Part shown: piece after piece, positions 6,984 through 37,778 of the stretch
How the letters are laid out: every line of letters starts with the position of its first letter
Numbering within the stretch: position 1 is the first letter of the stretch
From: Muribaculaceae bacterium
GTDB taxonomy: Bacteria; Bacteroidota; Bacteroidia; Bacteroidales; Muribaculaceae
Length of the DNA: 43,981 nucleotides
Direction of reading: 5' to 3'
Assembly: GCA_024400935.1 (NCBI GenBank)
Contig: JAKSLZ010000016.1
Span: 1-43,981 of the forward strand
Notes under the pieces: generated by a model
Seen by the model: the letters and a program-made list of their open reading frames with translations, nothing else
What the model was told of the DNA's origin: nothing
Database searches by the model: none
Translations under genes and position numbers: made by a program

Positions 6984-7144
6984 ATCCCCGCAGTAACGAT
7001 ACAGCATTACTCCTTTCTTGCATAATCCCCGCGCGGATCTCACGGATCTCATGGATAAATCATATGATTATTTATTTTTTCAGATTAAAATCGGTGAGAT
7101 CTGCGCGAGATAATCCCCCATTGGTGTATAGTTATATCCCCGCA
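6984..7144. mobile_element. MITE-like element, copy 1, with flanking 9-bp direct repeat
   Basis: The element body (6993-7135) begins GTAACGATACAGCATT and ends ATTGGTGTATAGTTAT, imperfect inverted ends. It is flanked by ATCCCCGCA at 6984-6992 and 7136-7144. Inside is the module TGCATAATCCCCGCGCGGAT followed by an AT-rich stretch around ATCATATGAT. The same module recurs nearly unchanged in the copy near 36.3 kb. No coding potential is seen. The right direct repeat forms part of the hairpin at 7138-7170, suggesting insertion beside the 3' end of the gene at 7215. This accounts for most of the 336-nt gap between ffh and that gene. Confidence 0.65.
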
Positions 7145-7170
7145 AATCTCGGTTAGGAGATTGTGCGGGG
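7138..7170 (-). terminator. hairpin downstream of the secreted protein gene at 7215
   Basis: CCCCGC-A-AATCTC (7138-7150) pairs with GAGATT-GT-GCGGGG (7157-7170) around a 6-nt loop. It follows the stop codon of the minus-strand gene by about 45 nt. There is no T-run on the minus strand, so it may stabilise the 3' end rather than terminate transcription. Confidence 0.4.
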
Positions 7171-7214
7171 ACAGTGTGTAGTTTGTTATGCCTCTGCGAG
7201 GCAGTGCTTGCGGT

Positions 7215-9743
7215 TTAGAACACGCGCTTGCTGGTAACGGTAGTGCCGTCGTTCATCGTGCTGATGACGATGTTGACGCCCTGGTGGGGTGTATCGCTGC
7301 CCACACCCAGCAGGTTGTAATACTTCACGCTCTTGACTGCGGCATTGCCGTTGAGGTCGTTAATGCCTGTTACCACGCCGTTTTTCACTTCGCCCACATC
7401 CTCAAGGCCGAAGGGATAAACCACATAATTGGGAGCTACGGCCATTGCGCCTGCAGCCTGTGATATCGCAGGGCTTTCAAGCTTGATGAGACCCAGGAAG
7501 TCATAGATGTGGTTTACGGTGACATCCTCGGGCATGCCACCCATGAGACTCCAGTTAACGCCGAATGCGCCCTCAAGGTCAGCCGAATTAGTTGTCGCTG
7601 TCTTGGGAATGCCCTCAAAGTGGTCGCCTGCCCATACTGCCCAGCGAATCTGTGCAATCTCCATGGGCTTGGGCGAGATGAAGAAGTAACCCTTCTGGCT
7701 GCCGTAGAAGTTGGCAGGTACATATGTATTATAAGAATAAGCGTTCTGCTCCTTGATGGCGGGCAGGGCCTTGAGCGTTAGCGACGGATTCTTGAGGTCG
7801 GTCACTGTACCCACCACATTGTTGATCTTCTGTTCCTTGAGGTCGAGAACCATGGCGTTGGTCACTCCTTGCTCGGCCTTCATGCCGGGAGCCGATTGTG
7901 GTGTGGCGGGGAACAAGGTAGCAGGAGCGTAGAGTGCAACCCAGTTGCTCTGGTCGTGGTTGTCGCGGTTGAGCTGCAGAGCACCACCGGCGATGTCGAG
8001 GATGTAATCCTTCTCATCGGCGCCCTTCATGTCGGGGGTAGCATATCCGTTCTCGTCTTTACAGTAAAGCACAGCGCTACCGTCATCGCTGGGAACAGCC
8101 ATCACGCAAGTAAGGTCAGTAACGTCATACTTCTTGTTGGTGGTTTCATTGTCAATGACAGTACCCAACACTGCTTCCTCGGGTGCGGCAACAAACACGT
8201 CATCGTCAAGGAGCATGTAGGCATCATTACCATTGATTTTACTGCAAGCCTCACCACCGAAGCCCACTGCACCGTCAACGAGAGTGAGTGCCTTGCAATT
8301 GCTTGCTACTGCATCTTGATTGGGGAAGTACTTCGTGCTTGAAACAAGGATGTTGCCACTTGTTGCTGTAAATGAAGCAGCGGTATTTGTGGGAACCATC
8401 ACGTTGCGGTCAGTGTCGTTGCTGTTGCATTCAATAAGCACGCAAGTGTTTTTGGGAATAATACCGCCTGTCACCTCGGTCTTGGTAAGAATGCCGTCTT
8501 CGTCAACGCCAGTAACGATATAAGCTGTAATTTCATTAGTGTCAAAGAGCACATTCCAAGCAGTGCGCAGGGTAGTGTAATATTTGCCTGTAGTCTCGTC
8601 AAGGAGCAACTTCTCAGGGTCAAAAGTGAAATAATTCTCCTTAGTCGTCAAGTCCTTGTCCATAGGCTCATAGTACCAGTGGGCAATGTCTTGTTGTTTG
8701 ATAGCAGATGCTTCGACACAATCACCTCCTTTGTCTGACATATACATAGGCTGTCCATTAGGATAAATGTACCAGGTATTATCTGATGTCTCGTGGTCTG
8801 AACATAAGAAAACACCTTGTGAAACATTATAAGGAACTTGGTCAGAAGAATATCCTTGTGCCTTGAATGTATAAACAAACTCTACTCGGCCGGATGCTTT
8901 GTAACTTGAAATTTCCCAAATACTTCCAGGCAAACTTATTGCTTTCTCGTTGTCTACTATATTTAATGCTGAGAAATCTTGGATTGAACCTTGATCCTTA
9001 ATTGCATTGATTCTGCGGTTAGTCTCCTTGTTTTTTATACGGTAGAAAGCATACCCCTTTGAGAATACAGCTTTGTAATCACCCTTGTTCTCATTGGAAA
9101 TGGTAAATGTCAGTCGTGGTTCTTTTGAAACAATAATGCCATCTTTCTCCCAACCGTCAAATTTTGCACTGTAAATCACAGGATATGCATAGATTGTGAC
9201 TTCTTCTCCCAATTGGTTCTCGGGTTTGTCGATGATTGCTGAACCAGCTGAGATGTCATTAGAAGATACTGAAACGTATTGGTTGATGATTTCCTCGTAT
9301 ACAGCGGTGTATGATAAAGTTATTGTTCCAGGGTTAGTGTATGCTTCACCACTTGTTCCTGTATTTGTGCCACCTGCTTTGACTCCCTTAGAATCTTTCA
9401 CTGAAATCAAGTGACCATTTTCGTCGCTTACATACTTTCCGTTTGCATCTTTCCAACCAACAAATTTGTATTTTTTAGAATCAGTTGGGGCTGTATTGAT
9501 ATACCATGTGTATGGAAGTTTACTTTGATGTGTAGAAATTGAGAATGTTTTAGGGGCAGTATCAAGATATGCTTCTTTGCTTGCCTCTGTTTCTTTACCA
9601 TTGGCATAAACCTTACCCGCGCCTGTTGGTGTCACATCAAGCATCAAATTTGAGTAATACCACAAGTCTGCTCCTCCGGTTCCTGCTTGGGCGTTGAAGG
9701 CGAGGGCTATCAGCGTGAGGGCTAATAATATGATTTTTTTCAT
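7215..9743 (-). CDS. large secreted protein with InlB-B-like repeats and sorting-domain-like C-terminus
   Basis: The frame is open to 9815, but the natural start is ATG at 9743, giving MKKIILLALTLIALAFNAQAG, a signal peptide, and 842 residues. The N-terminus has DVTPTGAGKVYANG, shared in pattern with the proteins at 13088 and 35167. Two segments resemble divergent InlB-B repeats (KFVGWKDANGKYVSDENG and AKFDGWEKDGIIVSKEP...YKAVFSKG). The C-terminal third aligns by eye with the protein at 13088: DLTCVMAVPSDDGSAVLYCKD, QSNWVALYAPA, GYFFISPKPMEIAQI. The end, KSVKYYNLLGVGSDTPHQGV...SKRVF, resembles a type IX secretion C-terminal domain. It is probably exposed on or released from the cell; no enzymatic motif was recognised. 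It lies 112 nt after the gene at 9856. Confidence 0.75.
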   Translation of the reverse strand: MKKIILLALTLIALAFNAQAGTGGADLWYYSNLMLDVTPTGAGKVYANGKETEASKEAYLDTAPKTFSISTHQSKLPYTWYINTAPTDSKKYKFVGWKDANGKYVSDENGHLISVKDSKGVKAGGTNTGTSGEAYTNPGTITLSYTAVYEEIINQYVSVSSNDISAGSAIIDKPENQLGEEVTIYAYPVIYSAKFDGWEKDGIIVSKEPRLTFTISNENKGDYKAVFSKGYAFYRIKNKETNRRINAIKDQGSIQDFSALNIVDNEKAISLPGSIWEISSYKASGRVEFVYTFKAQGYSSDQVPYNVSQGVFLCSDHETSDNTWYIYPNGQPMYMSDKGGDCVEASAIKQQDIAHWYYEPMDKDLTTKENYFTFDPEKLLLDETTGKYYTTLRTAWNVLFDTNEITAYIVTGVDEDGILTKTEVTGGIIPKNTCVLIECNSNDTDRNVMVPTNTAASFTATSGNILVSSTKYFPNQDAVASNCKALTLVDGAVGFGGEACSKINGNDAYMLLDDDVFVAAPEEAVLGTVIDNETTNKKYDVTDLTCVMAVPSDDGSAVLYCKDENGYATPDMKGADEKDYILDIAGGALQLNRDNHDQSNWVALYAPATLFPATPQSAPGMKAEQGVTNAMVLDLKEQKINNVVGTVTDLKNPSLTLKALPAIKEQNAYSYNTYVPANFYGSQKGYFFISPKPMEIAQIRWAVWAGDHFEGIPKTATTNSADLEGAFGVNWSLMGGMPEDVTVNHIYDFLGLIKLESPAISQAAGAMAVAPNYVVYPFGLEDVGEVKNGVVTGINDLNGNAAVKSVKYYNLLGVGSDTPHQGVNIVISTMNDGTTVTSKRVF

Positions 9744-9855
9744 TTTTTTGTAGCTTGTTGTTACGCACTCTGTGTGCCATTGCTCTGATTTTGAACTATA
9801 CTTAGCTTTAATCAAAGCAATGGCAGGTGGTGCGTTGTTAGTTGATTAATGTGAA

Positions 9856-11556
9856 TTATTTAACGATAAATTTCTTTCCGTTCTGGATGTAGATGCCCTG
9901 AGTGGGATTGAGCACCTTGCGGCCCATGAGGTCGTAGATGGCGCCATCCTTCTTGCCTGCAGCGATGCCGTCAATGCCAGTGCGTTTGTCATCGATAACA
10001 ATCACGATGGGCTCGTCTTCCTCGCTTTCATAGTACAGCCAAGCCTCGTTGCCGGGAACGTAGTTTGACAAGTTGGGAAGGAAGATGGGGTTGGTGCCGT
10101 CGGTAGCCACTTGGTAAGTATACTCGTCTACTGCCTGCTTGTTGTCGAAGAAGACTCCCTGCAGCATGTTGTTGCTGCGATACTCGGTGTCGCTTGCCAC
10201 GGGTTGCAGCATGCAGTTAGCAGCGCTGTTGTCGCTTGCAATCATCACCACTGCAGTGCGTGCAGGGATGATGCCCCTGATGGGCACGAGTGTTGCTACA
10301 CCGTCCTCATCAATGCTCTCAACGGCATAGATGTTGACGTTGGCGGGATTCACTACTTCATAAGCGAAGTCGGTATACAGGGTGCGGTAGCTTGCTTCGT
10401 CGCCCACCACGCTGAGTGTGGGAGCGAAGTAGTTTTCCTGGCTGTCGATTGCATCGAGTTTCCACTTGGTATTGTCGCTGGTCAAGTCGATTTCGCTCAT
10501 TGCGAGCGCGCCGTCCTTGACGCTGATATAGTAGTCCTTGTCGGCCTCGAGAGTCATGCCTGCAGCTGCCATCATTTTCACGATGGGGTTGCTTGCAAGT
10601 TGCTGCATCAGCTGGCCGTCAATCTGAGTGTCGGCAACGTGGAGCTTGAGGGTGAATGTGTTGTGGTCAAACTTGTCGGCACTGGTGTTAGTGTGGTTAA
10701 GGCGCAAGTAAGTGTCATTGCTGGTAGCGTTAGCCAGCTCGGCAACAGCTGCTGCGAGGTCCTCGCCCTGCGAGCGCAGGCGTGTCACGTAGCCGTTCTC
10801 GTCGATGTTGATGTGGAACACTGCACCGGCCTGGTTGCTGCGAGCCGCTGTGGTGGTGAAGTCGGTTGTGAAGCCTTCGTCAACCACGCGCAGAGAGTTG
10901 TCGGTAGCCACGTTCTTAGTGTAGAAGAAGCCGCTCTGGGGATAAGCCACGAGGTTCATCTGCCACTTCACTGTGGGGCCTTGCTCGATGCCGTAGCCGA
11001 AGCTGCCGTCGGGGTCAACGCGCATGTAATGACGGTTGCCGGGCACCATGTGGGTGATGTAATAGGTAACTGCAGTCTGGCCGTTGGCGGCATCAAGGAT
11101 TATTTCCTTTATTTCGTCCCAGCCTTCGATTGCAGGAACGTCAACGCACAGGAACACGCTGCCGTCGCCGTCGCCAGTGTCTACAAGGTGGAGTTCAAAC
11201 ATCTGGTTGAGGAACCAAGTGGGTTTGTTGTAATATTCAAGCACCTCCTCGATGAGGCCCTTGATCATGTCGAGAGTTTCAATCATGTCGCCGCCGTCGC
11301 CGCTCAGGTTGGTGAGCACGGCTTCGCCATTTTCCTGAGTCTTGTAAGCTACATAGAGATCGCTGGCATCGGCCTCAGTACCGGTGATGTCGGCCAGCAT
11401 GCTGTACTGCAACTTTACCCAGGTGTGGGTGTAGGTGTTCATGATTTTGTAAACGTCTTGCTGGGGGAGTTTTACTTTTCCAGCAGCATAAGCATTTGTG
11501 CTAGCGTTTAATGTGAAAATTGCAAGCACAATCAATGTGAATAATTTTTTTGTCAT
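9856..11556 (-). CDS. secreted protein of unknown function with sorting-domain-like C-terminus
   Basis: The 566-residue protein begins MTKKLFTLIVLAIFTLNAST, a signal peptide. The mature part shows no recognised enzymatic motif. It contains beta-rich segments such as GYGIEQGPTVKWQMNLVAYP and YFAPTLSVVGDEASYRTLYT. The last 45 residues (GIDGIAAGKKDGAIYDLMGR, then GIYIQNGKKFIVK) match the pattern of Bacteroidales C-terminal sorting domains: a YDLMGRKV strand and a final GIYI..GKK.IV strand. It lies 41 nt past the stop of the DUF4105 gene and is likely cotranscribed with it and with the gene at 7215. I would call it an extracellular protein without a known role. Confidence 0.75.
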   Translation of the reverse strand: MTKKLFTLIVLAIFTLNASTNAYAAGKVKLPQQDVYKIMNTYTHTWVKLQYSMLADITGTEADASDLYVAYKTQENGEAVLTNLSGDGGDMIETLDMIKGLIEEVLEYYNKPTWFLNQMFELHLVDTGDGDGSVFLCVDVPAIEGWDEIKEIILDAANGQTAVTYYITHMVPGNRHYMRVDPDGSFGYGIEQGPTVKWQMNLVAYPQSGFFYTKNVATDNSLRVVDEGFTTDFTTTAARSNQAGAVFHINIDENGYVTRLRSQGEDLAAAVAELANATSNDTYLRLNHTNTSADKFDHNTFTLKLHVADTQIDGQLMQQLASNPIVKMMAAAGMTLEADKDYYISVKDGALAMSEIDLTSDNTKWKLDAIDSQENYFAPTLSVVGDEASYRTLYTDFAYEVVNPANVNIYAVESIDEDGVATLVPIRGIIPARTAVVMIASDNSAANCMLQPVASDTEYRSNNMLQGVFFDNKQAVDEYTYQVATDGTNPIFLPNLSNYVPGNEAWLYYESEEDEPIVIVIDDKRTGIDGIAAGKKDGAIYDLMGRKVLNPTQGIYIQNGKKFIVK

Positions 11557-11597
11557 AAGGCTTTTATAAATTGTATTTTTATGTTTTTATTGTTTTG

Positions 11598-12824
11598 TTA
11601 TTTCGTTGGGCTAAGTAATGTATTTTGTTTATATTTTGCTTCAAGCCACTTGCTGGCGCACCGCACGGCCAGGGTGAGTGTGATGAGCTGGTGCTCAACG
11701 TCGAGCTGTGCACTGAATGGTGTCAAAGCCACGAAGGTGAGCAGTACCACGAAGTAGAAGCCGTAGAGTGTCTTCTTGTCAATTTTGTCGCGAAGCAGCC
11801 ACACGATGGCGGGGATGGGGTTGAACACGATGAGGTACCAGTTCCAGTGCAGCCCGAAGAGGCATGTCACGAAGCTCATATAGATGAGCAAGATGCCTAT
11901 GATGGTTTGCGACACGAGCAGGATGCAGTCGGTTATCATGGGAACTGTGCGCCACTTGAGGCTCCACTCGAGCAGTGTGATGACTGACACCAGTGCAAGC
12001 AATGAACCGAAGACGACCATCGGTGTGAACGGTGATTGGGTGACGGGTTTCTTGAGCGGCAGTATTGTCACTGGCTTGCCCTTGAACACGGGGCGCGGCT
12101 TGCCACCGTCGTTAGGCACAATCTGGGCTGCAGTGAGCACCGGGATTGTTAGTTCAGGACTCATGCGTTCTTCTTGATTAGTAAACCCATCGGCGGCAAC
12201 ACCCATCAGTGAGTTGTCGAAGAATGTGAGCCATGGCAGCTTGCGCGTGTGATAGTTAGCGCATTCTCCGTTGTTCCATGTCATGGGCTCGGGCCAGCTG
12301 CCAAACTCAAGTTGCTCGTTGATTAAGCTCCATTCAATGGCTTTGAGCGACATTGATGTGCAGTTGGTGTTCAAGAAGTTGAACTTGTATTCATCTGTGT
12401 TGGCCAGTTCTTCGTCAAGGAGTCGCCACAGGCGTTGCTGCTCGTGCAGGGTGAGGTTAAGCTCCACCTCCTTGACTTCTCGCCCTTCGTCAATGTACTC
12501 TTGCAGGAACATTTCGGGCTTTATAGGCAGGTACTGTGCCGTGAGCGTGCCGGCAAAGAATTGGAGAAAATCAAAGTCGGTTGCTGTGTAGGTGCCGAAC
12601 GAGAAGTAGAAGTCCAGCTTGTGCACGGGGCACTCAAGGTGAATGGCGCAGTGGCCCAGCGATGAGTAAATGTTGTTGCCGGGCGAAACCACCACAAGGC
12701 TGGCTTTAACAAAGTTGCTGCTGTCGGGCAGGAGAACATAAGTGGAGTCGGCCTTGGCGTTGGCATGGGCTGACAGGCACAGCACTGTGATGACAGCTAT
12801 AAGTATGTGGGCTAATTTCTTCAA
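11598..12824 (-). CDS. DUF4105 / Lnb-type N-terminal periplasmic domain membrane protein
   Basis: About 408 residues. The N-terminus is a signal peptide or anchor (KKLAHILIAVITVLCLSAHA). A papain-like DUF4105 domain follows, with Cys/His positions in SLGHCAIHLECP and NFLNTNCTSMS. The C-terminal half is hydrophobic: about four or five membrane segments, such as PMVVFGSLLALVSVITLL and ILLVSQTIIGILLIYMSFV. In some Gram-positives the related Lnb acylates lipoprotein N-termini; whether this protein does so is inference. No in-frame ATG precedes the domain. TTG codons at 12824 and 12833 are the candidate starts, and I prefer 12824 because it gives M-K-K-L. A promoter at 12878-12910 supports this end. 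It probably leads a transcript with the genes at 9856 and 7215. Confidence 0.8.
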   Translation of the reverse strand: MKKLAHILIAVITVLCLSAHANAKADSTYVLLPDSSNFVKASLVVVSPGNNIYSSLGHCAIHLECPVHKLDFYFSFGTYTATDFDFLQFFAGTLTAQYLPIKPEMFLQEYIDEGREVKEVELNLTLHEQQRLWRLLDEELANTDEYKFNFLNTNCTSMSLKAIEWSLINEQLEFGSWPEPMTWNNGECANYHTRKLPWLTFFDNSLMGVAADGFTNQEERMSPELTIPVLTAAQIVPNDGGKPRPVFKGKPVTILPLKKPVTQSPFTPMVVFGSLLALVSVITLLEWSLKWRTVPMITDCILLVSQTIIGILLIYMSFVTCLFGLHWNWYLIVFNPIPAIVWLLRDKIDKKTLYGFYFVVLLTFVALTPFSAQLDVEHQLITLTLAVRCASKWLEAKYKQNTLLSPTK

Positions 12825-12877
12825 AGCTAACAATTGTAATGTCTTTATAATTGGGCAAAAAAATGTCGTTAATCGTG

Positions 12878-12910
12878 CAAAGTTAGGTAAAATAAATATA
12901 TCACTCCAAA
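12878..12910 (-). promoter_or_regulatory. promoter of the DUF4105 gene
   Basis: The minus strand shows TTTG at 12910-12907, a 21-nt spacer and TAACTTTG at 12885-12878. This is about 54 nt upstream of the TTG start at 12824. Confidence 0.68.
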
Positions 12911-13017
12911 AAATAGTTGCTAAAAATGCTTTGTTGTGTTTTGTTTTTTTTGTTTTATTGAGGCTTTGAGGAGAAATAAAACAATTTTGGGGAATAATAA
13001 ATCACATAGGATACCTG

Positions 13018-13060
13018 TGAAAACAAACAAGATGTCCCCCCGGCGAGGAGGACATCTTGT
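13018..13060 (-). terminator. rho-independent terminator of the gene at 13088
   Basis: ACAAGATGTCC at 13027-13037 pairs perfectly with GGACATCTTGT at 13050-13060 (11 bp, 12-nt loop). On the minus strand the stem is followed by the T-rich TTGTTTTC. It is 27 nt past the stop codon. Confidence 0.75.
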
Positions 13061-13087
13061 GATAATGTGGATGTGTTGTGTCTCGTT

Positions 13088-14407: not shown

Positions 14408-14491
14408 ACAATTAAGTTGTTACTAAATTCCCTAAAAAAAACAATCGGGACTTTTATTAAATTGGGCTTTATATTTAGTTGAAATTTTGCG

Positions 14492-14523
14492 CAAAGATAC
14501 ACTAAATATATAATATGAACAAA
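14492..14523 (-). promoter_or_regulatory. promoter of the gene at 13088
   Basis: The minus strand shows TTTG at 14523-14520, a 20-nt spacer and TATCTTTG at 14499-14492. The start codon at 14407 lies 84 nt downstream, leaving a leader of roughly 80 nt. Confidence 0.72.
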
Positions 14524-14652
14524 TATATTTTTGTTAAAGTGTGTTGTTACAGCTAATTGGCAATAATTGTGTGATAATTAGACAGAATAAGCTTAATGTG
14601 AAAAATTAACCATATTTAAGGTAAATGAGGACTGAAATTGTGGCTGCAGAAC

Positions 14653-14683: not shown

Positions 14684-14689
14684 CAAGTT

Positions 14690-15172: not shown

Positions 15173-15178
15173 AGAAGT

Positions 15179-18993: not shown

Positions 18994-19347
18994 CCACAAG
19001 ACTAAAAGAATACAGAAACTGACATAAATTACGGAGACATTTTAAACTACAGATTGCGCAGATTACACCGAAGAACAATTAATCAGCCTAATCAGGACAC
19101 TCTGTTGTTGAACATTTTCTAGCGACATCCGTGAGCTCCGTGCGGGGTGTTAGAACTGAAATAACCGAGCGAAGCGAGCTCAATGGAGTGAGCAGCGGTA
19201 AGTGGGCGAAGCCCGTGCCGCGCTCAGCGAACCTCCATTAAATTAAAATATTTATGTCCTTGTGAGTTCTTTTGTTCTTGTGTCTAAAAAAATGATGCAG
19301 AGTGAGGGAGTTAAAACTGAAACGAAATAAACCAAAAAATATAAGCA
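18994..19347. other. intergenic region with dispersed repeats
   Basis: No gene is visible. Positions 19047-19096 match 20281-20330 with only a few differences (both contain GAAGAACAATTAATCAGCCT), so the LRR gene is flanked by direct copies. A CGTGAGCTCCGTGCGGGG segment near 19130 is a divergent member of the GATCTCACGG-type module seen at several places. The hairpin segment at 19188-19236 is described separately. I see no convincing terminator for the upstream operon. Confidence 0.55.
19188..19236. repeat. hairpin repeat, inverted copy of 21166-21214
   Basis: The reverse complement of this 49-nt segment matches 21166-21214 at about 46 of 49 positions. The core contains GGGC-gaa-GCCC. It is non-coding. 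Confidence 0.7.
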
Positions 19348-20562: not shown

Positions 20563-20661
20563 CAATAAACAGAAAAAACACAACTGTTAATACCCCGCGA
20601 CCAGTGAACCTTTGCCAACAGAGGAAGCATCATCCCAACAATGAGGGTGTAGTCCATACAT

Positions 20662-20830
20662 GTTGCCCGTAACCGGGCAACACGTTGATTGTGTCATTCT
20701 GCGACAGCCTCCTACATCCCATTGTCTACTATCAAACGATCCAAATTGCTTGCGGTGTAGCGTCTTCCAGACGCATAGTTTCGGCTTACCATTTCCCCGG
20801 TACACCTTCGCCACGCTTCGGTGTACCGGG
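20662..20830. repeat. series of short perfect hairpins
   Basis: GTTGCCCG-taac-CGGGCAAC occupies 20662-20681. GCGTC-ttcca-GACGC follows near 20760. The arms CCCGGTACACC (20796-20806) and GGTGTACCGGG (20820-20830) pair perfectly over 11 bp. The architecture resembles the interior of the element at 34668-34950, although the sequences differ. Confidence 0.6.
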
Positions 20831-21165
20831 TTATCCAGGTAATGTCCTGCGGACATCGGAGTGCCACCAATACATATGTGCCGCAATAGAGCAGCTAACC
20901 GAGAAAAATCCGGATCCATGATTTTTTGTATTTTATTAGGCGTAGCCGCATTTTCGTCATAGTGGATAACAGTTGTGGTTAAGCCACAATGTGGGTCATG
21001 GCATGGGTTGCAGGCCGAAGCTCGCATCGAGACGGCAACCCATGCCATGGCGCACACTCAGGACTAAACTGAGCGTTGTCTACTATGACATTTTCCTTTT
21101 AATTAATTCAACTTTCGCATGTTGCTAAAATGTCGTTTATTGTATTGAAAGTCGCGTACTTTGGC

Positions 21166-21214: not shown

Positions 21215-21430
21215 TCTGCCGAGTACAGTTCAGCACGCATTCCCTTTGGTTTCAGTATCCGAGGGTTGCGTTCGCTGCGCTCACTTCACCCCCAGTTATT
21301 GATAGTCGCACAAGTGCGACCACGCACCTGTTGGCGCGAATAATGCCTTATTAGCATACAAGACAGTAAATTACAACTTGCGAAACTTGAGTGTATTTAT
21401 TCAACTTTCTCAAGTAGACAATTCGCTTAG

Positions 21431-21821
21431 CTGTAACCGAAACTATTCAGCAATGGGGATAATCTCGCACAGAGAGTACTGTGTGGATGTTAGGCTGAAA
21501 GCCGACACGCAGAACCTTGGTTCTGCACATAACCCTGTCCTAACTGAGCGCAAGCGAAGGCAGGGCAGGGATAACGATACTCTGTACTGCGGTTGAAGAC
21601 CGCCACCTTTTACGTTTCGAGGTAGCGGTCTTCAACCGCGATTTGTCACACTTTACACCCCCACCGAAAGGAGTGAAACGACTGCCGGTGGGGGTTATGT
21701 GCCCAAAGCATAGCTTTGTGCGTGTAGGCTTTCAGCCTCTCTTTGTTAATGTATTTTCAATTTAAAAAATCCGCGAGTTCTGCGCGAGATCCTACCATTG
21801 CTGAATAGTTACTCTGTAACC
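21431..21821. mobile_element. MITE-like element, copy 2, with hairpin-rich core and 8-bp direct repeat
   Basis: The inverted ends are AACTATTCAGCAATGG (from 21441) and CCATTGCTGAATAGTT (ending about 21810), a perfect 16 bp. CTGTAACC flanks the element at 21431-21438 and 21814-21821. The core at 21492-21738 has its own outer arms (AGGCTGAAAGCCGACACGC and a near-perfect partner). They enclose AGAACC-tt-GGTTCT, a CCCTG/CAGGG stem, a 15-bp perfect stem (21589-21603 with 21625-21639), CCCCCACCG/CGGTGGGGG and AAAGC/GCTTT. The core is in opposite orientation to the copy near 36.5 kb. Non-coding. Confidence 0.65.
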
Positions 21822-26667: not shown

Positions 26668-27502
26668 GAAACTATACAGCAATATGACGCTATCTCGCGC
26701 AGGAAATTCTTAAGAACTGAAACGAATTTAAAAACCATGTGTCCATTTTTGTTCTTTTAGTCCCAAAAAATCCCCGCGCGGTTCACACGGAAATCACAGA
26801 TAATTATTTAACAACAGATTGTCCTGATTAAGCTGATTTGTTTTTCTGAGTAATCAGTGCAATGTTGTTTTATTCAGACAGGAGGACACAGAGATGTGCA
26901 CTTGAAACAAACCACAGATTAAACAGAGGTAAGGGAATTTTATTTCAGATTAAACAGATTGCTTTTGTAGCCTTTGGGGAGATTGGCATTAGTGCCACAA
27001 TCTGTTTAGTCTCGTCAAGAATTCCCTGATGAAACATTTTTTTCAGCGCAATCTGTTGTTTGAAATGTTCACTTAATTTATTGTTCTTGTAGTCTAGAAA
27101 AGTTTTCGTGCTGGTTTTATCGAAACCATTTCTCTTGTACAGAGTATAACGCGCAGATAAAGAAACAGTGTGGATGCTGCGGCTGGAACATAACCCTGTC
27201 CTAACTGAGCGTGAGCGAAGGCAGGGCGGGGGAAAAGCAATTACTATCATGCGGCTGTAGGCCGCCACCTTGATGTTGCAGGTAGCGGTCTACAACCGCG
27301 CGTTTCTGGTCATTGCTGCTCCCACCGCCACTACGCTCGGCGGTGGGGGTTATGTGCCCAAAGCACAGCTTTGTGCGTGCCGGCTTTCAGCCTCTTGCTG
27401 CGCATGTCTTTAGGGGGTATAGACCAGCCGCCCTAAGTTGCGCAAATTCTTCAAGAACAGGAGTGAGTTCTGCACGAGATGACTGCATTACTGTACAGTT
27501 AC
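26668..27502. mobile_element. degenerate MITE-like element, copy 3, with hairpin-rich core
   Basis: The possible ends are AACTATACAGCAAT near 26669 and ATTACTGTACAGTT near 27486, matching at 12 of 14. No flanking direct repeat is evident. The core (about 27170-27393) has the same order of stems as copy 2, but its left outer arm is deleted. The main stem is GCGGCTGTAGGCCGC (27251-27265) with GCGGTCTACAACCGC (27285-27299). Compared with the other copies it carries a paired A-T to T-A swap. A CCCACCGCC/GGCGGTGGG hairpin and AAAGC-aca-GCTTT follow. Confidence 0.5.
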
Positions 27503-28839: not shown

Positions 28840-28876
28840 CTCGTTTAGTTTATTGATTATGTTTAGTTGTTGTAAG

Positions 28877-31353: not shown

Positions 31354-31403
31354 TTTTTTGACAATATTTTTTTAGTGTGAAGAATATGTGAAAATAATGA
31401 CCA

Positions 31404-31435
31404 CAAAGTTACTCAAAAGTTTGAAATAATACAAA
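31404..31435 (-). promoter_or_regulatory. promoter of the permease-lipoprotein operon
   Basis: The minus strand shows TTTG at 31435-31432, a 20-nt spacer and TAACTTTG at 31411-31404. The start codon is 51 nt downstream. Confidence 0.73.
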
Positions 31436-31557
31436 CAAAATGCCGGTCATGTGCATTACAGCCCGTTATTTGGCCCATAATTAATAGGGTCCGCCTTAAA
31501 CCATGGCTTAAAAGTTGCGTCTAAAGTGTACTAGCAAGATACTTTTTTGAGTTATAC

Positions 31558-31588
31558 TTGTTTATTTCAGTTAAATATATTATCTTTG
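31558..31588 (+). promoter_or_regulatory. promoter of the small secreted protein gene (and perhaps cls)
   Basis: TTG at 31558-31560 and TATCTTTG at 31581-31588 are separated by 20 nt. The ATG at 31599 follows only 10 nt later, leaving a very short leader. It is divergent from the permease promoter. Confidence 0.68.
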
Positions 31589-31598
31589 CACGTTGAAC

Positions 31599-31904
31599 AT
31601 GAAAAAGCTGTTTCTCATATTATTGACATGCGCGGCTCTGGGGGTAACCCCGGTGATGGCTAGCCCCGATGGCGGCAATGTCGCACAGCGCATCGAGAAT
31701 GTTGCGTCGGTGGCCGGCGGGACAGCTCACATCACGTTCTATGCCGGGTCGGTCGACGCTGTCTTCTCGGTATATTCCATCACCGGGCAGCTGATAAAGA
31801 CAGTTAGAGTGAGTGCCGACAACCATGCTTCGATTGACATCCCCAAGGGTTTCTATGTGGTGAAGTGCAACGGGCAGTGGTCGCGCAAGGTGGTAGTGAA
31901 GTAA
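31599..31904 (+). CDS. small secreted protein resembling a free-standing type IX sorting domain
   Basis: The 101-residue protein begins with the signal peptide KKLFLILLTCAALGVTPVMA. The rest fits the pattern of a Bacteroidales C-terminal sorting domain: FSVYSITGQLIKTVRVS, then IDIPKGFYVVKCNG and a final KVVVK strand. Normally this domain closes a much larger cargo protein; here almost nothing precedes it. The ATG at 31599 is preferred over a TTG two codons upstream. The short leader and good promoter argue that it is expressed. It could be a decayed cargo remnant, a tiny surface protein or a decoy. A hairpin with a weak T-tract follows it, and cls begins 60 nt later. Confidence 0.72.
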   Translation: MKKLFLILLTCAALGVTPVMASPDGGNVAQRIENVASVAGGTAHITFYAGSVDAVFSVYSITGQLIKTVRVSADNHASIDIPKGFYVVKCNGQWSRKVVVK

Positions 31905-31923
31905 CAAGAAAACTTAGATATAA

Positions 31924-31958
31924 TGGGCTGGAGTGTGCAACTCTGGCCCAATTTTCTT
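31924..31958 (+). terminator. hairpin with T-rich tail after the small secreted protein gene
   Basis: TGGGCTGGAGT (31924-31934) pairs with ACTCTGGCCCA (31940-31950), with wobble positions, and is followed by ATTTTCTT. It could partly terminate transcription before cls. Confidence 0.55.
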
Positions 31959-31963
31959 AATAT

Positions 31964-33397
31964 ATGGTTTTAGCTGAGATTTTTCCATATGCCCACGTGC
32001 TGTACAATGTCTTGATGGTGTTGTATGTGCTCACTATTGTGGGCACCATCGTGGTGATCTTGAGCGAGAACCGCAATCCTGTCAAGTCGCTGGCATGGGC
32101 CACGGTGCTCATCCTCATGCCACTGGCAGGCATCATCCTCTATGCATTCTTTGGCCGCAACTTCCGCAACCGCAAGCGCATACCCCGCAAGCGCTGGCGC
32201 AAGCTGCATCCGGGACACGGCAGGGTGCACGACGACTCGCTCAAGGGCGACCAGGTGCTGCAGGCACGGCTTGCCTCTACGCTGGCCGAGACACCGTGCT
32301 ACGAGGGCAACAGCATCGACGTGTACACCGACGGCCAGTCAAAGTTTGACGCCCTGATGCGCGACATACAGGCTGCCACCAGCTTCATCTACATCCAGTA
32401 TTACATCATCGAGAACGACAACCTGGGCAAAGCTCTGGCGCAGGCTCTCGTCGAGAAGGTGAAGCAAGGCGTCTCGGTGCGTCTCATCTATGACCATGTG
32501 GGCTCTTACTCCATCAATTCGGCATTCTTCAGCCGCTTGAGGAAAGAGGGCATCGAGGCACATCCGTTTCTCAAGGTTACATTCACCACTTTTGCCGCCC
32601 GCCTCAACTGGCGCAACCACCGCAAGGTGGTGGTGATAGACGGCACTGTGGGCTATGTGGGGGGCATGAACGTTGCCGACCGCTATGTCACGGGCGACAA
32701 GCATGGCGCTCCGTGGCGCGATACCCACCTGCGCATCACTGGGCCCGCCGTGGTGGCGCTGCACAACTCGTTTGCCGTGGATTGGTATTACATGAAGCGC
32801 AACCTGCTCACCTTGCCCTACAACACCGTGGCACCTCCCGTGACCGGAGACTACAAGGTGCAGATTGTGGCCAGCGGTCCCACCGACAAGTGGAACTCGA
32901 TGTACTATGTGGTACTTCAGGCAATAGCCAGGGCAAAGAAAAGCCTTTATATCCAAACCCCTTATTTCCTGCCCAGCGAATCGTTGCTCAACGCCCTGCA
33001 GGTGGCGGCGCTGTCGGGGGTGGACGTCAGGCTGATGATACCGCGTCGCACTGACTCGGCCGTGCTGCGATATGCGTCGGGCAGCTACATCAAGGAGTGC
33101 CTGCTTGCCGGCATCAAGATATACGTGTATGACGACGCCATGCTTCACTCTAAGGTGATAATCGTGGACGATGATTTCGTCACCACCGGGTCGTCAAACT
33201 TTGACTTCCGCAGCTTTGAGCACAACTTTGAGTGCAACGCTCTGGTCTATAGCAACGAGTTCAACCGCCACATGAAATCTATCTTTATCGACGACCAGCA
33301 CCGTTGCACACGTCTCATCCTGTCACACTGGCGCCGCCGCCGCATCACCACCAAGGCCATGGAGTCAGTGGCCCGCCTTCTTGCCCCCATCCTCTAG
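31964..33397 (+). CDS. cls: cardiolipin synthase
   Basis: The 477-residue protein has two N-terminal membrane helices with the PLDc_N pattern (SENRNPVKSLAWATVLILMP). Two phospholipase D HKD motifs follow: HRKVVVID with His219 and Lys221, continuing GTVGYVGGMN; and HSKVIIVD with His395, continuing DDFVTTGSSNFDFRS. This is the standard ClsA-type architecture and length. The enzyme condenses two phosphatidylglycerol molecules, or related donors, to cardiolipin at the inner membrane. The start at 31964 puts the hydrophobic segment at the right place. No separate promoter was found, so it may depend on read-through from the gene at 31599. Confidence 0.94.
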   Translation: MVLAEIFPYAHVLYNVLMVLYVLTIVGTIVVILSENRNPVKSLAWATVLILMPLAGIILYAFFGRNFRNRKRIPRKRWRKLHPGHGRVHDDSLKGDQVLQARLASTLAETPCYEGNSIDVYTDGQSKFDALMRDIQAATSFIYIQYYIIENDNLGKALAQALVEKVKQGVSVRLIYDHVGSYSINSAFFSRLRKEGIEAHPFLKVTFTTFAARLNWRNHRKVVVIDGTVGYVGGMNVADRYVTGDKHGAPWRDTHLRITGPAVVALHNSFAVDWYYMKRNLLTLPYNTVAPPVTGDYKVQIVASGPTDKWNSMYYVVLQAIARAKKSLYIQTPYFLPSESLLNALQVAALSGVDVRLMIPRRTDSAVLRYASGSYIKECLLAGIKIYVYDDAMLHSKVIIVDDDFVTTGSSNFDFRSFEHNFECNALVYSNEFNRHMKSIFIDDQHRCTRLILSHWRRRRITTKAMESVARLLAPIL

Positions 33398-33462
33398 GCC
33401 ACAGCCGTGGTGCAACACCGCATTGCATATTAATCAGTATACTAACTCATAATTTAGAACCT

Positions 33463-33999
33463 ATGAAAAAAATATTAGCATTGATGTTACTGGTAGTGCC
33501 ATTCTTGATGATGGCCCAGGGACACCAGGTGGGTACAACCGAGAAAACCAAAATCTATAATGCTCCTGGCGGCAAGGTGCTAGTGACGTTGCCCAAGAGT
33601 GCCCAATGCGACGCGTTTATCTTTAATGTCGTGGCGTCAAGCAAGGGGTGGCTCAAGATTGACAAGAGCACCTTTCAAGCAGCCGAGTACATTGACATCG
33701 ACGGCGAAGAAGTAGAAAACACTCATGTGCTGATGATAGACGCATTTAAAGACGAGTGTTGGGTAAGATGCGAGGACGTCTTCACTGACCTTTTCAGACC
33801 GGGAGCCATGATGACGTATGACAAGTTTTATCAGTCGCCCAGCAAGTCATCCAAGTGCCTGGGCAGCATCAGCCCTGATATGATTCTTGAGGTAAAAGGC
33901 AATTGGGTCAAGGTGGAAGGTGACGTCAAGGGTAGCCGCAAACGCAAAACCGGCTGGATGTACAAGCCCCATCTGGTTGTTGAAATGTGCAGTGCTTGA
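33463..33999 (+). CDS. secreted SH3-like domain protein
   Basis: The frame is open from 33304, inside cls, but the ATG at 33463 gives a clean signal peptide, KKILALMLLVVPFLMMAQG, and 178 residues. The mature protein seems to hold two SH3b-like units: TEKTKIYNAPGGKVLVTLPK with GWLKIDKSTF, and KFYQSPSKSSKCLGSISP with GNWVKVEGDV and GWMYKPHLV. Such domains often bind peptidoglycan or protein ligands in the periplasm. There is no catalytic domain. It lies 65 nt after cls on the same strand. Domain assignment is from pattern only. Confidence 0.78.
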   Translation: MKKILALMLLVVPFLMMAQGHQVGTTEKTKIYNAPGGKVLVTLPKSAQCDAFIFNVVASSKGWLKIDKSTFQAAEYIDIDGEEVENTHVLMIDAFKDECWVRCEDVFTDLFRPGAMMTYDKFYQSPSKSSKCLGSISPDMILEVKGNWVKVEGDVKGSRKRKTGWMYKPHLVVEMCSA

Positions 34000-34254
34000 G
34001 AAACTGCCTTTGGCAATATAACGTTTACTGGATTTTAGACTAAAAGAATGCGCAGGAAATTCTGTCTCAATTTATGTAAGTCTATGTTCTTTTAGTCTCT
34101 AAAAATCCCCGCGCGGATCTTACGTCCCGCTGGAAAATATTTAATAACAGATTGTCCTGATTAAGCTGATTATTTCGTCAGTGTAACCAGTGCAATCTGT
34201 TGTTTGTCTTTAAACTAAAAATTCTTTGCGTCAAGTTTTATTTTAATTTATTAG

Positions 34255-34637
34255 TGTCCGGTAAAAATGAACATGATTAAAATTGAAGTAAAAGAAGCGC
34301 AGAAAGCGCGTGCTGTGAGCGAAAGCGAACCTCTGCCAACGTACGTGACTAAACTGTCAATATACAAGTGTATTGAGGGTGTTTTAGACCCCCTGCGGGG
34401 AGAGCGGAAGGGCTTCGCCCCATTGTTTTATCCCCGCACGTTCTCCAGTCGCTTCGCTCCTTGCGCACGTACGGGGTTATTATCCAGCGCAAAAGCGCTG
34501 GGTATTGTCCCTTTGGGACAAGTCTGGAGTTACCTTAAGTTGCTTGAACAAATCAAAACCAAGCCCTATTTCATTATTTGTATATAAAATTTTGGTTTTT
34601 AACCGCTTATCCAGTTGTTGGATATTTTTACCGGACA
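34255..34637. mobile_element. IS-like remnant with perfect 14-bp inverted ends
   Basis: TGTCCGGTAAAAAT at 34255-34268 is matched exactly by its reverse complement at 34624-34637. The interior carries short hairpins, for example CAGCGC-aaaa-GCGCTG and TGTCCC-ttt-GGGACA. The minus strand inward from the right end can be read as GKNIQQLDKRLKTKILYTNN, which is protein-like but breaks off in the hairpin segment. No transposase was recognised and no clear target duplication found. Confidence 0.45.
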
Positions 34638-34657
34638 GCAATAATTTGAAATGCTTC

Positions 34658-34959
34658 TGTAATTTGGGATCAGCGGATAATTCTGGTTGGTAACATGACG
34701 ACGGAGTCGTCACATTGCATCGTAACCGATGGCCGCAGGCCGTCGGAGACAATGAGCACCCCACGACCCGACCTCGAAGGGGTCGCACTTCACCACACGT
34801 GATTTATCCCATACCTAAAGGCATGGTCTGTTTATGTTACCTTTCTTCCAGCCATATCGTCCTGCATTTGCAGGCCTTCATGGCTGGCTACCGTATTCCA
34901 TCCCGATGGGATGGTCACGACGTGACACCAACCAGAATTATCCGCTGATCTGTAATTTG
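34658..34959. mobile_element. MITE-like element with perfect 24-bp inverted ends and 9-bp direct repeat
   Basis: The left end (34668-34691) begins GATCAGCGGATAATTCTGG, and the right end (34927-34950) is its exact reverse complement over 24 bp. TGTAATTTG flanks it at 34658-34666 and 34951-34959, with one extra G on the left. The inside is a chain of small hairpins such as GACGACGGAGTCGTC, GGCC-gca-GGCC, CCTGCATTTGCAGG and CCATCCCGATGGGATGG. It is non-coding. A partial inverted relative is at 39639-39693. It ends 14 nt before the terminator A-tract of the neighbouring gene. Confidence 0.65.
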
Positions 34960-34973
34960 TGTTGTGGAGAATG

Positions 34974-35015
34974 AAAAAAAAGCATCCCTGCGGCCTTGAT
35001 GAGCGCAGGGATGCT
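34974..35015 (-). terminator. rho-independent terminator of the gene at 35167
   Basis: AGCATCCCTGCG (34981-34992) and CGCAGGGATGCT (35004-35015) form a perfect 12-bp stem with an 11-nt loop. On the minus strand it is followed by eight T. It lies about 150 nt past the stop codon, beyond the octamer array, giving a long 3' UTR. Confidence 0.88.
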
Positions 35016-35068
35016 ATATTGTTTGGTATCTAAAGTTAAACGGTTAGCCTTTAAACGATTGGTCTGTT

Positions 35069-35164
35069 AATCAATTAATCAATTAACCCTTTAACCTGTT
35101 AACCAATTAACCTGTTAACTAGTTAACCTTTTAACCTTTTAACCTTTTAACCTTTTAACCTTTT
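35069..35164 (-). repeat. twelve tandem 8-bp units (AAnnGGTT) in a 3' UTR
   Basis: On the minus strand, directly after the stop codon, five exact AAAAGGTT units are followed in strict 8-nt register by AACTAGTT, AACAGGTT, AATTGGTT, AACAGGTT, AAAGGGTT and two AATTGATT. The register then decays. The array lies between the stop codon of the gene at 35167 and its terminator. Confidence 0.88.
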
Positions 35165-35166
35165 AT

Positions 35167-36090
35167 TTACTTGATAGCCTGACCAGCTACGTTGTACTTA
35201 ACGTTGTCCTTAACGATAACAACCTGACCGTTCTCGATAGTCTTAACCACCTTAGCAGCGTTAACGTTAACGTCGTTGATGCCTGTTACAGGAGCAGGGG
35301 TTACAACGTATTCAGCCTCGCTACCGCCATAAACTTCACCTGTGAGTTCGTCAGCAGCAACTACGGTGAGCTTTCCGCTCTGAGTGATACGGAGACCCTC
35401 TTCGGGGTAAGACTGGAAACCATCAGGAACTGCTTTGAGAAGGCCTTCTACATTCTCCTCTTCAACCTTAGCCTCAAACTTGTAAGCGAGCTTGCAGAAC
35501 TCGGGAAGGTTCTCAACGTTAGCCTTAACGTCTACATAGTCACTATATTCGCCACTTGCCTTGTCAAAAGAAACTGTTGCGGGAGTTACTTCCTGGGGAC
35601 GGAAAACAGCGATGTAAGCTGAGTCAACGTGGTTGTTAACCTCCTCGGTGTGCTGAGCGATGCAATCAGCCTCGTGCTCGTCGTCAAACTGACCGCACAT
35701 CATCCAGCTCCTGAAGTTGTCAATGCGACCTTCAGTGCTGAAACCAGTGTTTCTCTTTACTACATTGCCAGTAGCTTTGTTTACAAGAGCCTTGAATACA
35801 TAACCCTCGTCGGCTGTGGTTGTGTAGTACAGACGCACGTCACCGTCGTTGTAAACGCTGGGCACTGCAGACTGATCGGTTGACCAGTGCTTCTCGGCAA
35901 CTGTTGACATGTTATTTCTTGCCTCTTCATAGTTGTCAAAAGAGATGTAAACCTTACCAGCGCCTGTAGCTTCGGCTGTAGCACGGAAAGTGAAGAAATA
36001 AGTTTTCTGGGTAGTACCACCGTTGCCACCTGCAAAAGCGTTAAATGAAAGCGCTACAGCAGAAACGAGAAAAAGTAAAAATTTTTTCAT
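35167..36090 (-). CDS. secreted protein of the GKVY-motif group, unknown function
   Basis: The 307-residue protein begins with signal peptide KKFLLFLVSAVALSFNAFAG. Its mature N-terminus has ATAEATGAGKVYISFDN, like DVTPTGAGKVYANG at 7215 and TGEGKVYATCAG at 13088. The C-terminus, TGINDVNVNAAKVVKTIENG, ending VKYNVAGQAIK, resembles a shortened sorting-type domain. The middle (YSDYVDVKANVENLPEFCKL) looks beta-rich. There is no enzymatic motif. Codon choice is more uniform (GTT/AAC/GCA-rich) than in neighbours, which may indicate high expression. Its 3' UTR holds the octamer array and a strong terminator. A weak TACTTTCG -7 candidate lies at 36206-36199. Confidence 0.75.
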   Translation of the reverse strand: MKKFLLFLVSAVALSFNAFAGGNGGTTQKTYFFTFRATAEATGAGKVYISFDNYEEARNNMSTVAEKHWSTDQSAVPSVYNDGDVRLYYTTTADEGYVFKALVNKATGNVVKRNTGFSTEGRIDNFRSWMMCGQFDDEHEADCIAQHTEEVNNHVDSAYIAVFRPQEVTPATVSFDKASGEYSDYVDVKANVENLPEFCKLAYKFEAKVEEENVEGLLKAVPDGFQSYPEEGLRITQSGKLTVVAADELTGEVYGGSEAEYVVTPAPVTGINDVNVNAAKVVKTIENGQVVIVKDNVKYNVAGQAIK

Positions 36091-36267
36091 AATAGATTTT
36101 ATTTTGTGGTTATAAAAAAATAGAAATTTCCCTGTTGAAGATTTGTCACTAATGTTACAAAATCAAGTATGCATTATATCTTTACAGAAAATATTTCACG
36201 AAAGTAACAAAAATAAAGATGCCAGCATAATATAGTGGCAACTTTAACATGATTTTAACAGATTTAT

Positions 36268-36740
36268 ACTTTTGCGGAAACTTTACGCAACTATTCACCA
36301 ATACTCCTTTTTGCATAATCCCCGCGCGGATCACACGGATTTCATGGATTAATCATATGATTATTTATTTTTTTAGATCAAAATCTGCTGAACTCGCAGA
36401 ACTCGCGGATTTTTTTAATTGAAAATATATTAACAAATTGAGGCTGAAAGCCGACACGCAAAGCTATGCTTTGGCACATAACCCCCACCGAAAGGAGTGG
36501 AACGACTGCCGGTGGGGGTGTAAAGTGTGATGAAATCGCGGTTGAAGACCGCTACCTCGAAACTGCAAGGTGGCGGTCTTCAACCGCTGTATCGTTATCC
36601 CTGCCCAACCTTCGCTTGCGCTCAGTTAGGACAGGGTTATGTGCAGAACCAGGTTCTGCGTGTGGGCTTTCAGCCTAACATCCACACTGTTTCTCTCTGC
36701 GCAAGATAGTGTTATATTGCTGAGTAGTTATACTTTTGCG
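36268..36740. mobile_element. MITE-like element, copy 4, with hairpin-rich core and 9-bp direct repeat
   Basis: ACTTTTGCG occurs at 36268-36276 and 36732-36740. Just inside are AACTATTCACCAAT (from 36289) and ATTGCTGAGTAGTT (ending 36729), inverted at 12 of 14. The left part repeats the TGCATAATCCCCGCGCGGAT module of copy 1. The core at 36441-36676 has outer arms AGGCTGAAAGCCGACACGC and GCGTGTGGGCTTTCAGCCT. They enclose AAAGC-tat-GCTTT, CCCCCACCG/CGGTGGGGG, a 15-bp perfect stem (36538-36552 with 36573-36587) and GCAGAACC-a-GGTTCTGC. GCACATAACCC (36474) also pairs with GGGTTATGTGC (36634). It fills most of the gap between the genes at 35167 and 36781. Confidence 0.65.
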
Positions 36741-36780
36741 TTACTGCTTGTGGCTATTCAATTGGTTGAGAACGCTTTCT

Positions 36781-37686
36781 TTACCTCATGCGGCGGTAGA
36801 AGTAGGGCGGGATAGGGGTCTCAAATGTGAGTTCCTCGCCGGTGACGGGATGCTTGAGTGCCAGCTTGAAGGCGTGCAGGCACATGCGGCTGCCCGGGGC
36901 GTCCTGGCTGCCATACTTGCCGTCGCCCACCACGGGGTGGTGTATGTCGGCCATGTGCACGCGTATCTGGTTCTTGCGTCCTGTGAGCAGTTTTAGTTCT
37001 AGCAGAGCGTGCTGCTGTCCTTGTTCCAGAAGTCGCCATGTGGTGACGGCAAATTTGCCGCCGTTGTCGGTGGGGCTGCTTATTACCACCATGCGCTTGG
37101 TGTCCTTGAGGAAGCTTTCCACACGGCCTTCCTGCTTCTCCATGGTGCCTTCCACGAGTGCCACGTAGCGGCGGTCGGTCACAGTGTTGTGCCAGTCCTC
37201 GGTCATGTCCTGCTGTACCTGCGTGCTCTTAGCATAGACCATAAGGCCCGATGTGCGGCAGTCGAGACGGTGCACCACATGTGCGGTGCAGTGCTGGCGT
37301 GTCTCGGTGAAATGGCGGTCGAGCAGAGCCTTCATGTTGAGGCTGCCGGCTCCCACGCCCATTGAGAGCACGCCGGGCTCCTTGTCCACGATGACTATCC
37401 AGCGGTCTTCATACACGATGCGGTAGTGCGGGCTGGTGGCTGCACGGGGACGGGGCTGGCGGCTGATGGTGACAACACTGCCGGGCAGCACCTTGAAGTC
37501 GTGGTGAGTCTGCTGGTGTCCGTCCACCTCCACGCCTCCCTTGGTGAGGATTGACTTGGCTTTGTTGCGGCTGATGCCGTCGAGGCATTTCATGACAAAG
37601 TCGAGCAGTCCCATTTCTTCACGCACGGTGAAGGCAAGTGACTTGTCGGTGGCGCGTGGCACACGGTGGTTGTGGTTGCGTTTCAT
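36781..37686 (-). CDS. RluA-family 23S rRNA/tRNA pseudouridine synthase
   Basis: I place the start at ATG 37686 (MKRNHNHRVPRATDK), giving 301 residues. An alternative TTG at 37731 would add 15 residues read through the MITE-like element. An S4-type RNA-binding segment lies at about 20-75 (FVMKCLDGISRNKAKSILTK and the GGVEVDG strand). The catalytic motif is HRLDCRTSG, with Asp142, preceded by DKEPGVLSMG. RLLEQGQQHALLELKLLTGR and KNQIRVHM complete the RluA signature. It isomerises uridine to pseudouridine in RNA; which site cannot be told, although RluD-like arrangement is seen. It lies downstream of dnaJ on the same strand. Confidence 0.92.
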   Translation of the reverse strand: MKRNHNHRVPRATDKSLAFTVREEMGLLDFVMKCLDGISRNKAKSILTKGGVEVDGHQQTHHDFKVLPGSVVTISRQPRPRAATSPHYRIVYEDRWIVIVDKEPGVLSMGVGAGSLNMKALLDRHFTETRQHCTAHVVHRLDCRTSGLMVYAKSTQVQQDMTEDWHNTVTDRRYVALVEGTMEKQEGRVESFLKDTKRMVVISSPTDNGGKFAVTTWRLLEQGQQHALLELKLLTGRKNQIRVHMADIHHPVVGDGKYGSQDAPGSRMCLHAFKLALKHPVTGEELTFETPIPPYFYRRMR

Positions 37687-37707
37687 ATACTTTTTAAACT
37701 GGTTGTG

Positions 37708-37778
37708 TATGAGTTGGTAACTATACGCCAATGGGGATTATGCAAAAAAGAGTGTTGGTGTATAGTTACTATGAGTTG
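37708..37778. mobile_element. 53-bp minimal MITE-like element with perfect 9-bp direct repeat
   Basis: TATGAGTTG occurs at 37708-37716 and 37770-37778, directly abutting an almost perfect palindrome (37717-37769). The palindrome starts GTAACTATACGCCAA and ends TTGGTGTATAGTTAC. The 23-nt centre contains GGGGATTATGCAAAAAAGAG, the same end module seen inverted in copy 4. It lies in the dnaJ-rluA interval. Confidence 0.75.

Follow-up and report, generated by a model that had tools for sequence, protein, structure and literature searches.

Short non-coding elements with IS66-like tips in a Muribaculaceae genome, often found 8-9 bp from the tip of another copy

We find that an abundant family of short intergenic elements in a Muribaculaceae genome is best explained as IS66-type MITEs that are moved in trans and frequently sit at a distance of 8-9 bp from the tip of another element, a reading to which, taken as a whole, we give a probability of about 80%. 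The starting point was a stretch of 43,981 nucleotides (the window), which is contig C49 of a 2.84-Mb genome (the host genome) assembled in 140 contigs and 77% complete. A first-pass annotation of the window had proposed four mobile elements sharing their ends and differing in their flanking duplications, with a transposase acting in trans. Its interpretation is supported by our analysis: the common ends, the different duplications and the high copy number all fit.

Direct reading of the window confirms the four elements at the positions given below, none of which carries a strand assignment, and adds a decayed fifth that had been missed. Element 1 (6993..7135; 143 bp) is near-palindromic, has the tips GTAACGATACAGCATT and ATAACTATACACCAAT, and stands between exact copies of the 9-bp target duplication ATCCCCGCA (6984..6992 and 7136..7144). 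Element 2 (21439..21812; 374 bp) has a hairpin-rich interior (fold z = -13.5) and is flanked by the 9-mers GCTGTAACC (21430..21438) and TCTGTAACC (21813..21821), which differ by one mismatch. The element proper terminates in ...GTTAC at position 21812, and the 8-bp repeat CTGTAACC originally assigned to it is shifted by one base from the true register. Element 3 (36277..36731; 455 bp) is bounded by exact 9-bp copies of ACTTTTGCG (36268..36276 and 36732..36740). Its left end is irregular (36277-36302), with about 10 additional bases, GAAACTTTAC, following the duplication before the normal tip starts at 36287. Element 4 (37717..37769; 53 bp) extends scarcely beyond its two tips and is flanked by exact 9-bp copies of TATGAGTTG (37708..37716 and 37770..37778); it is located between rluD-like and dnaJ-like genes, the gene names being recognised by eye. 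The decayed element 5 (~26668..27502; ~835 bp) has the tips AAACTATACAGCAAT and TAACTGTACAGTAAT, and a search for its target duplication found none. With up to 3 mismatches allowed, the end motif occurs 12 times in the window, compared with a mean of 4.31 and a largest count of 9 in shuffled sequence. A tRNA scan of the window returned nothing.

The interiors of the elements are non-coding, as had been claimed, in that no transposase gene was found in the copies read, and they are not unique but built of modules common to other repeats. Element 3 carries the hairpin module of element 2 in inverted orientation (85% identity over 351 bp) as well as an arm of element 1 (90% over 98 bp), and parts of the module shared by elements 2 and 3 match element 5 and 18 of 36 other stretches of the host genome that were searched. 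Other repeat families are nested inside elements; for example, a copy of a 163-bp repeat at C97:39441 lies within a GTAAC-tipped element. This repeat belongs to a second MITE-like family with ends CCCAGAAAGT and apparent flanking repeats of 4-5 bp, also seen at C64:50754, C64:56324, C1:31627 and C1:87766 (loci L031-L070). Three further repeat families were encountered in the window. One, intergenic and without GTAAC tips, starts with GGGATCAGCGGATAATTCTGG, measures about 285 bp in the window (34666-34951) and recurs at C1:94044 and C62:2811. Another, starting with ATGATTTTTTGTATTTTATTAGGCGTAGCCGC (20918-21106; also C13:8439, C108:28433 and C108:41203), overlaps an open reading frame listed at 20587-21057 that is probably spurious. 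The third, AACCGAGCGAAGCGAGCTCAATGGAGTGAGC..., occurs both outside GTAAC-tipped elements, at 19163-19250 and C57:30873, and within one, at C57:5916.

The family is very abundant, as the first-pass annotation had suspected from the window. Its tips are inverted sequences of about 16 bp, GTAACTATWCRSCAAT (GTAACTATACACCAAT), and a search of the whole genome with the motif NTAACTATWCRSCAAT gave 139 matches with at most 1 mismatch and 204 with at most 2, versus 0 and 28, respectively, with the reversed motif. Among 37 genomes of the genus, this one included, only the host genome (139) and G004 (107) are rich in tips, the remainder having 0 to 11. For closer analysis, approximately 790 kb of the host genome were read in stretches (a base total that includes some 3 kb of contig C64 two times); because these stretches were picked largely for motif matches, densities computed from them are biased upwards. 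At the starts of contigs C59, C62, C65, C66 and C85 we observed an exact tip 67-188 bp from the start and facing the end of the contig, a pattern suggesting that the metagenome assembly broke at the repeats.

One indication of mobility is the duplication of the target site. In free register, a flanking repeat of at least 8 bp was found at 22 of 46 inverted pairs of ends, while a control with mismatched partners, shuffled 200 times, averaged 0.23 and never exceeded 2. When the register was fixed, an exact target site duplication (TSD) was present at 27 of 112 loose candidate pairs (~790 kb), 9 bp long in 20 cases and 8 bp in 7; shifting the flanks by any of nine distances between 3 and 20 left 0-1 exact repeats each. 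One of the 27, on C140, is a pair of elements. The duplications vary from site to site around common tips, which is the trace left by transposition, as had been proposed, and no motif is visible within the duplicated sequences in the list of TSDs. In G004, only 1 of 8 left ends having a partner shows an exact TSD. Single TSD elements measure 53-455 bp, so that in size, non-coding content, terminal inverted repeats, target duplication and copy number they have the properties of MITEs. They are also intergenic, as claimed: only 1 of 26 TSD elements has a junction inside an open reading frame of at least 100 aa, versus 76% of random placements.

We looked for sites from which an element is absent. 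Between dnaJ and rluD, where element 4 is located, nine of the ten relatives examined could be aligned (the tenth, G119, could not), and by eye the 53-bp element is absent from eight of the nine; the ninth, G004, appears to hold a decayed family member, again judged by eye. The spacer is too diverged among the relatives for a single copy of the target to be demonstrable at this site. For the other elements, the gap to the next gene is mostly tens to hundreds of bases. When the joined flanks of 16 elements with in-register TSDs were used as queries for paralogous empty sites, none was found; matches across a junction were confined to the locus of the query itself (4 elements) and a single tip in L131.

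One form of the family, 204 bp long, has been freshly amplified in a recent burst. We found 16 full copies of it in 764 kb of the host genome, and over a 172-bp core 13 of these are 100% identical, two 99.4% and one 96.5%; four further copies, partial or older, are 81-86% identical. Fourteen of the 16 have an exact duplication of their own. The remaining two are a copy on C63, without a duplication, and the copy on C140, which lies inside the pair that has one.

Copies of the family lie 8-9 bp from another tip far more commonly than at any other short spacing. A pentamer of GTTAC/GTAAC type is found exactly 8-9 bp beside 10 of the 26 TSD elements, and the remaining spacings from 0 to 30 contributed just two single cases, at 12 bp and at 19 bp. 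Nine of the ten are 204-bp copies. We measured the same tendency using outward-facing pairs of tips, defined as 15-mers within 60 bp of one another with at most 3 mismatches each and 4 in sum. The host genome has one such pair with a spacer of 8, six with 9 and one with 19, that is, 7 of 8 at 8-9 bp; the spacers in G004 (28 loci) are 8, 9, 10 and 49, that in G075 is 8, and that in G357, which belongs to another genus and was found via a stricter pattern, is also 8, with one partner consisting only of a 31-bp tip. For the four genomes together, 11 of 14 pairs fall at 8-9 bp. Left out of this count were C89:16059 (spacer 28) and C140:1931 (spacer 20), which by eye look like chance matches in genes, as well as G031:C319, whose spacer is 30, and G004:C93, whose spacer is 8 but one of whose tips is weak; restoring all four rows gives 12 of 18. 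A looser pattern run on 10 genomes (0 to 3 matches per genome for the reversed control) gave 9 matches in the host genome, six with spacers of 8-9, one with 19 and the two judged to be chance matches. The strict pattern found 8 pairs in 3 of 397 genomes and 0 with the reversed control; among the matches listed, 6 of 7 pairs have a spacer of 8-9.

The 204-bp copies show what these neighborhoods look like. For ten of the 16, a tip or the remnant of one is found 8-9 bp away, on one side of the copy in five cases and on the other side in five. Six (on C50, C78, C107 and C129, and two on C97) are flanked by the duplication at either end, with a tip that can still be recognised just outside it, and three (C1, C24 and C46) have only a tip remnant beyond the duplication. 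In most adjacent cases the identical 8-9 bp flank the 204-bp copy left and right, while for C107 and C24 the spacer is 9 and the duplication 8. On C140, a 204-bp copy and its neighbor are 9 bp apart (GCTGCATTG), and the two together stand between copies of the 9-bp repeat TGGTTTACG; we read this outer duplication as the pair having moved as a unit. A lone inverted 31-bp tip was also seen at L218 (G357:C26, at a contig end), with AATACCTC on both sides and beside an element having the same tip. Could this be a one-ended product?

In four of the 204-bp copies (C50, C78, C97:3457 and C140) the far tip is a variant resembling the tip of the neighbor. For C50 and C140 it is identical to the neighbor's over 16 nt, and for C78 and C97:3457 it is a hybrid. 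Five copies abut their neighbor by one particular side, and these comprise all four variants plus C129, which is not a variant; among the 11 other copies there are none, or one if a point change in C46:44846 is counted (hypergeometric p ~0.003 to 0.013, a post hoc value from hand arithmetic on small numbers). This suggests that one element became joined by its end to the flank of a second element, and that the far side was closed by copying across the similar tips. The adjacency as a whole could be a by-product of such joining, akin to the figure-eight stage in copy-out transposition, with template switching in similar tips closing the far side. The concentration of variant far tips in the copies abutting by one side argues for this, as does the spacer on C140, which differs from the outer duplication there. 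A reaction of this kind has been described for ISCth4, an element of the IS256 family, for which in vitro joining links the donor end to sequence flanking the recipient end, leaving similar spacers of 6-8 bp, although, in the part of that report covered here, the joined ends come from one element and the transposase is of a different family (PMC7780238). Against it, none of the five copies abutting by the other side has a hybrid tip; three of the four variants (C78, C97:3457 and C140) are one and the same sequence, so they may be an allele of the 204-bp form; and the identical repeats on both sides are already explained by ordinary staggered insertion. We consider the by-product explanation unlikely, though of some weight.

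Which transposase could move these elements? The first-pass annotation had suggested looking for an insertion sequence with matching terminal repeats, and such sequences exist in the genus but were not found in the host genome. The complete reading frames found in G075 encode transposases of the IS66 family (PF03050, E 6.6e-37 and 2e-37). Of the same-genus IS66 copies with both ends, L103 (G075) and L104 (G065) are bounded by GTAACTATTCACCGAT and GTATCTATTCAGCGAT, and L106 (G075) has GTAACTGTTCAGCGAT at both ends; these tips are identical to the MITE tip at 14-15 of 16 positions. No target duplication was found at these three copies. For an IS66 in G030, a single end and part of the gene were found, and in G005 a sister tip, TAACTATTCAGCGAT, runs on into a reading frame. 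A transposase-like reading frame by a tip in G005 (L073) proved to lie outside the tip and to have only a sub-threshold match of ISL3 type, and we set it aside as a neighbor.

Across the wider family, the transposase protein has a match at E <= 1e-30 in 25 of 397 genomes, and both tips were present at 14 of 18 IS66 loci examined. Six of these 14 have an exact TSD (6 of 13 testable, one locus being without its left flank), and all six TSDs are 8 bp long, whereas the MITE duplications are a mixture in which 9 bp predominates. In the literature, 8-bp direct repeats are tabulated for IS66 elements of Paracoccus (PMC3281130), and IS66 tips are described as starting with GTAAGCG or GTAACCG (PMC12888890), in the sections of those papers covered. 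We also scanned a wider contig collection for the transposase and obtained seven loci. The metagenome bins that hold them carry the labels Muribaculaceae, Prevotellaceae, Porphyromonadaceae, Prevotella or simply Bacteroidales, and three of these seven originate from roe-deer rumen or sheep abomasum. The visible tips of the six loci examined for ends are of GTAACTATTCAGCGA or GTAACTATTCACCGAT type, none being CAAT.

The likeness to IS66 consists of a tip starting with GTAAC, near-identity to the tips of same-genus copies and, for 7 of the 27 duplications, the 8-bp length seen in IS66. The differences are that the elements here have no transposase gene, are much shorter (53-455 bp, or 835 bp for the decayed element 5, versus ~1.6-1.9 kb), mostly have 9-bp duplications, and share their tips but no inner sequence with the IS66 copies seen. 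We take the relevant relatives to be of the single-transposase-gene type, as in the ISBst12 group. In the host genome (77% complete) a profile search with PF03050 gave 0 matches, and an IS66 protein query gave one weak match, to the coiled-coil part (residues 7-122, E 4.6e-5); an autonomous partner with the same ends was accordingly not found there. G004, the other genome with more than 100 tips, has no PF03050 match either, and IS66 is present in 6 of 101 genomes of the genus, 5 of them over the cut-off. Many MITEs lack a resident autonomous partner, and the missing partner therefore lowers the case for membership in this class but does not exclude it. Since no IS66 gene was found in the host genome, the link between the MITEs and IS66 rests on tips and duplication size, and movement in trans is what we infer. 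The acting copy of the transposase may have been lost, may be unassembled, or may be of another family.

That last option deserves separate consideration, namely that the elements are MITEs of a different DDE family whose IS66-like ends are convergent or ancient. It would account for the lack of an IS66 gene in the two genomes with the most copies and for the mixed 8/9-bp duplications where IS66 has 8 bp. On the other hand, the same-genus IS66 tips differ from the MITE tip at just one or two of 16 positions. Moreover, of 46 end pairs in 694 kb, nine are longer than 900 bp; every one of the nine carries 2-3 mismatches in one end or both, in-register TSDs are lacking throughout, and the longest reading frames look ordinary, with no transposase recognised by eye. 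We regard a different parent family as quite improbable, and an IS66-type transposase acting in trans as the probable mover of the MITEs.

Two other kinds of intergenic palindrome were considered. REP or BIME-type sequences moved by a single-strand (HUH) transposase are likewise intergenic and strongly folded, but target duplications are not expected from HUH chemistry, and the consistent 8-9 bp duplications led us to reject them as hardly credible. Conserved RNA structures, such as terminators or regulatory RNAs held in place without mobility, would suit the intergenic location and the strong fold of element 2, but we reject these as well, with very little residual weight, since the flanking duplications vary from site to site, the same tips enclose different interiors, and an Rfam scan of the window gave zero matches at the gathering threshold. 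A secondary role as RNA is conceivable.

For the preferred reading, IS66-type MITEs moved in trans, we can outline how the adjacency might arise. An IS66-family DDE transposase would bind the tips in trans and stagger its cut of the target by 8-9 bp, and the transposase complex would take a resident tip as a landmark for the target. Pairs would build up because new copies often land 8-9 bp from the end of an older copy, and a neighboring pair could then move as a unit, as the C140 case suggests, helping to make longer, mosaic elements. Counting against the preferred reading are the missing IS66 gene in the host genome and in G004, the scarcity of IS66 in the genus, the lack of TSDs at the three same-genus copies with both ends, the predominance of 9-bp duplications, the sharing of tips alone, the low TSD rate in G004, the unequal spacer and duplication at C107 and C24, and the failure to find a clean or a paralogous empty site. 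The full proposal, in which tip-bound transposase steers the next copy to 8-9 bp outside, tips are sometimes swapped, and pairs move as one to give self-accreting mosaics, is tentative, and we give it somewhat less than an even chance of being correct.

Adjoining elements have a parallel in the MITE multimers of rice and maize, reportedly described by Jiang and Wessler in 2001. According to the part covered of a paper on pithoviruses, 11% of rice MITEs are in multimers, and in the viral case neighboring repeats share a duplication (PMC10664404). These systems are eukaryotic or viral and use other transposases. Among bacterial MITEs, MITECca01 of Cardinium (IS982) and BrickBuilt of Porphyromonas gingivalis are likewise short and non-coding with IS-like inverted ends, but they have other parent families, and the portions of their descriptions covered contain no adjacency rule (PMC9769881, PMC4596501). 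The family in our study was not matched to any named one, in agreement with the first-pass annotation. Among the matches listed in open-access titles and the beginnings of abstracts, there is no report of IS66-derived MITEs in Bacteroidales and no precedent for tip-adjacent insertion in bacteria; in the main text of a 2024 review of prokaryotic MITEs, as far as it was covered, the terms IS66, Bacteroid-, tandem and nested are all absent (PMC10969869).

The adjacency sets this MITE family apart as a variant that deserves specialist attention. The portion of the literature covered here contains no description of how IS66 moves, and a natural family that records its choice of target to the base is a direct handle on that movement. 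An in vitro reaction could test whether insertions fall 8-9 bp from resident ends, as predicted, and possibly also whether tips are exchanged. Such work would show how intergenic repeats multiply and accrete in Bacteroidales of the rumen and gut and, if the proposal is true, guidance by resident ends would allow mini-transposons to build up into mosaic elements.
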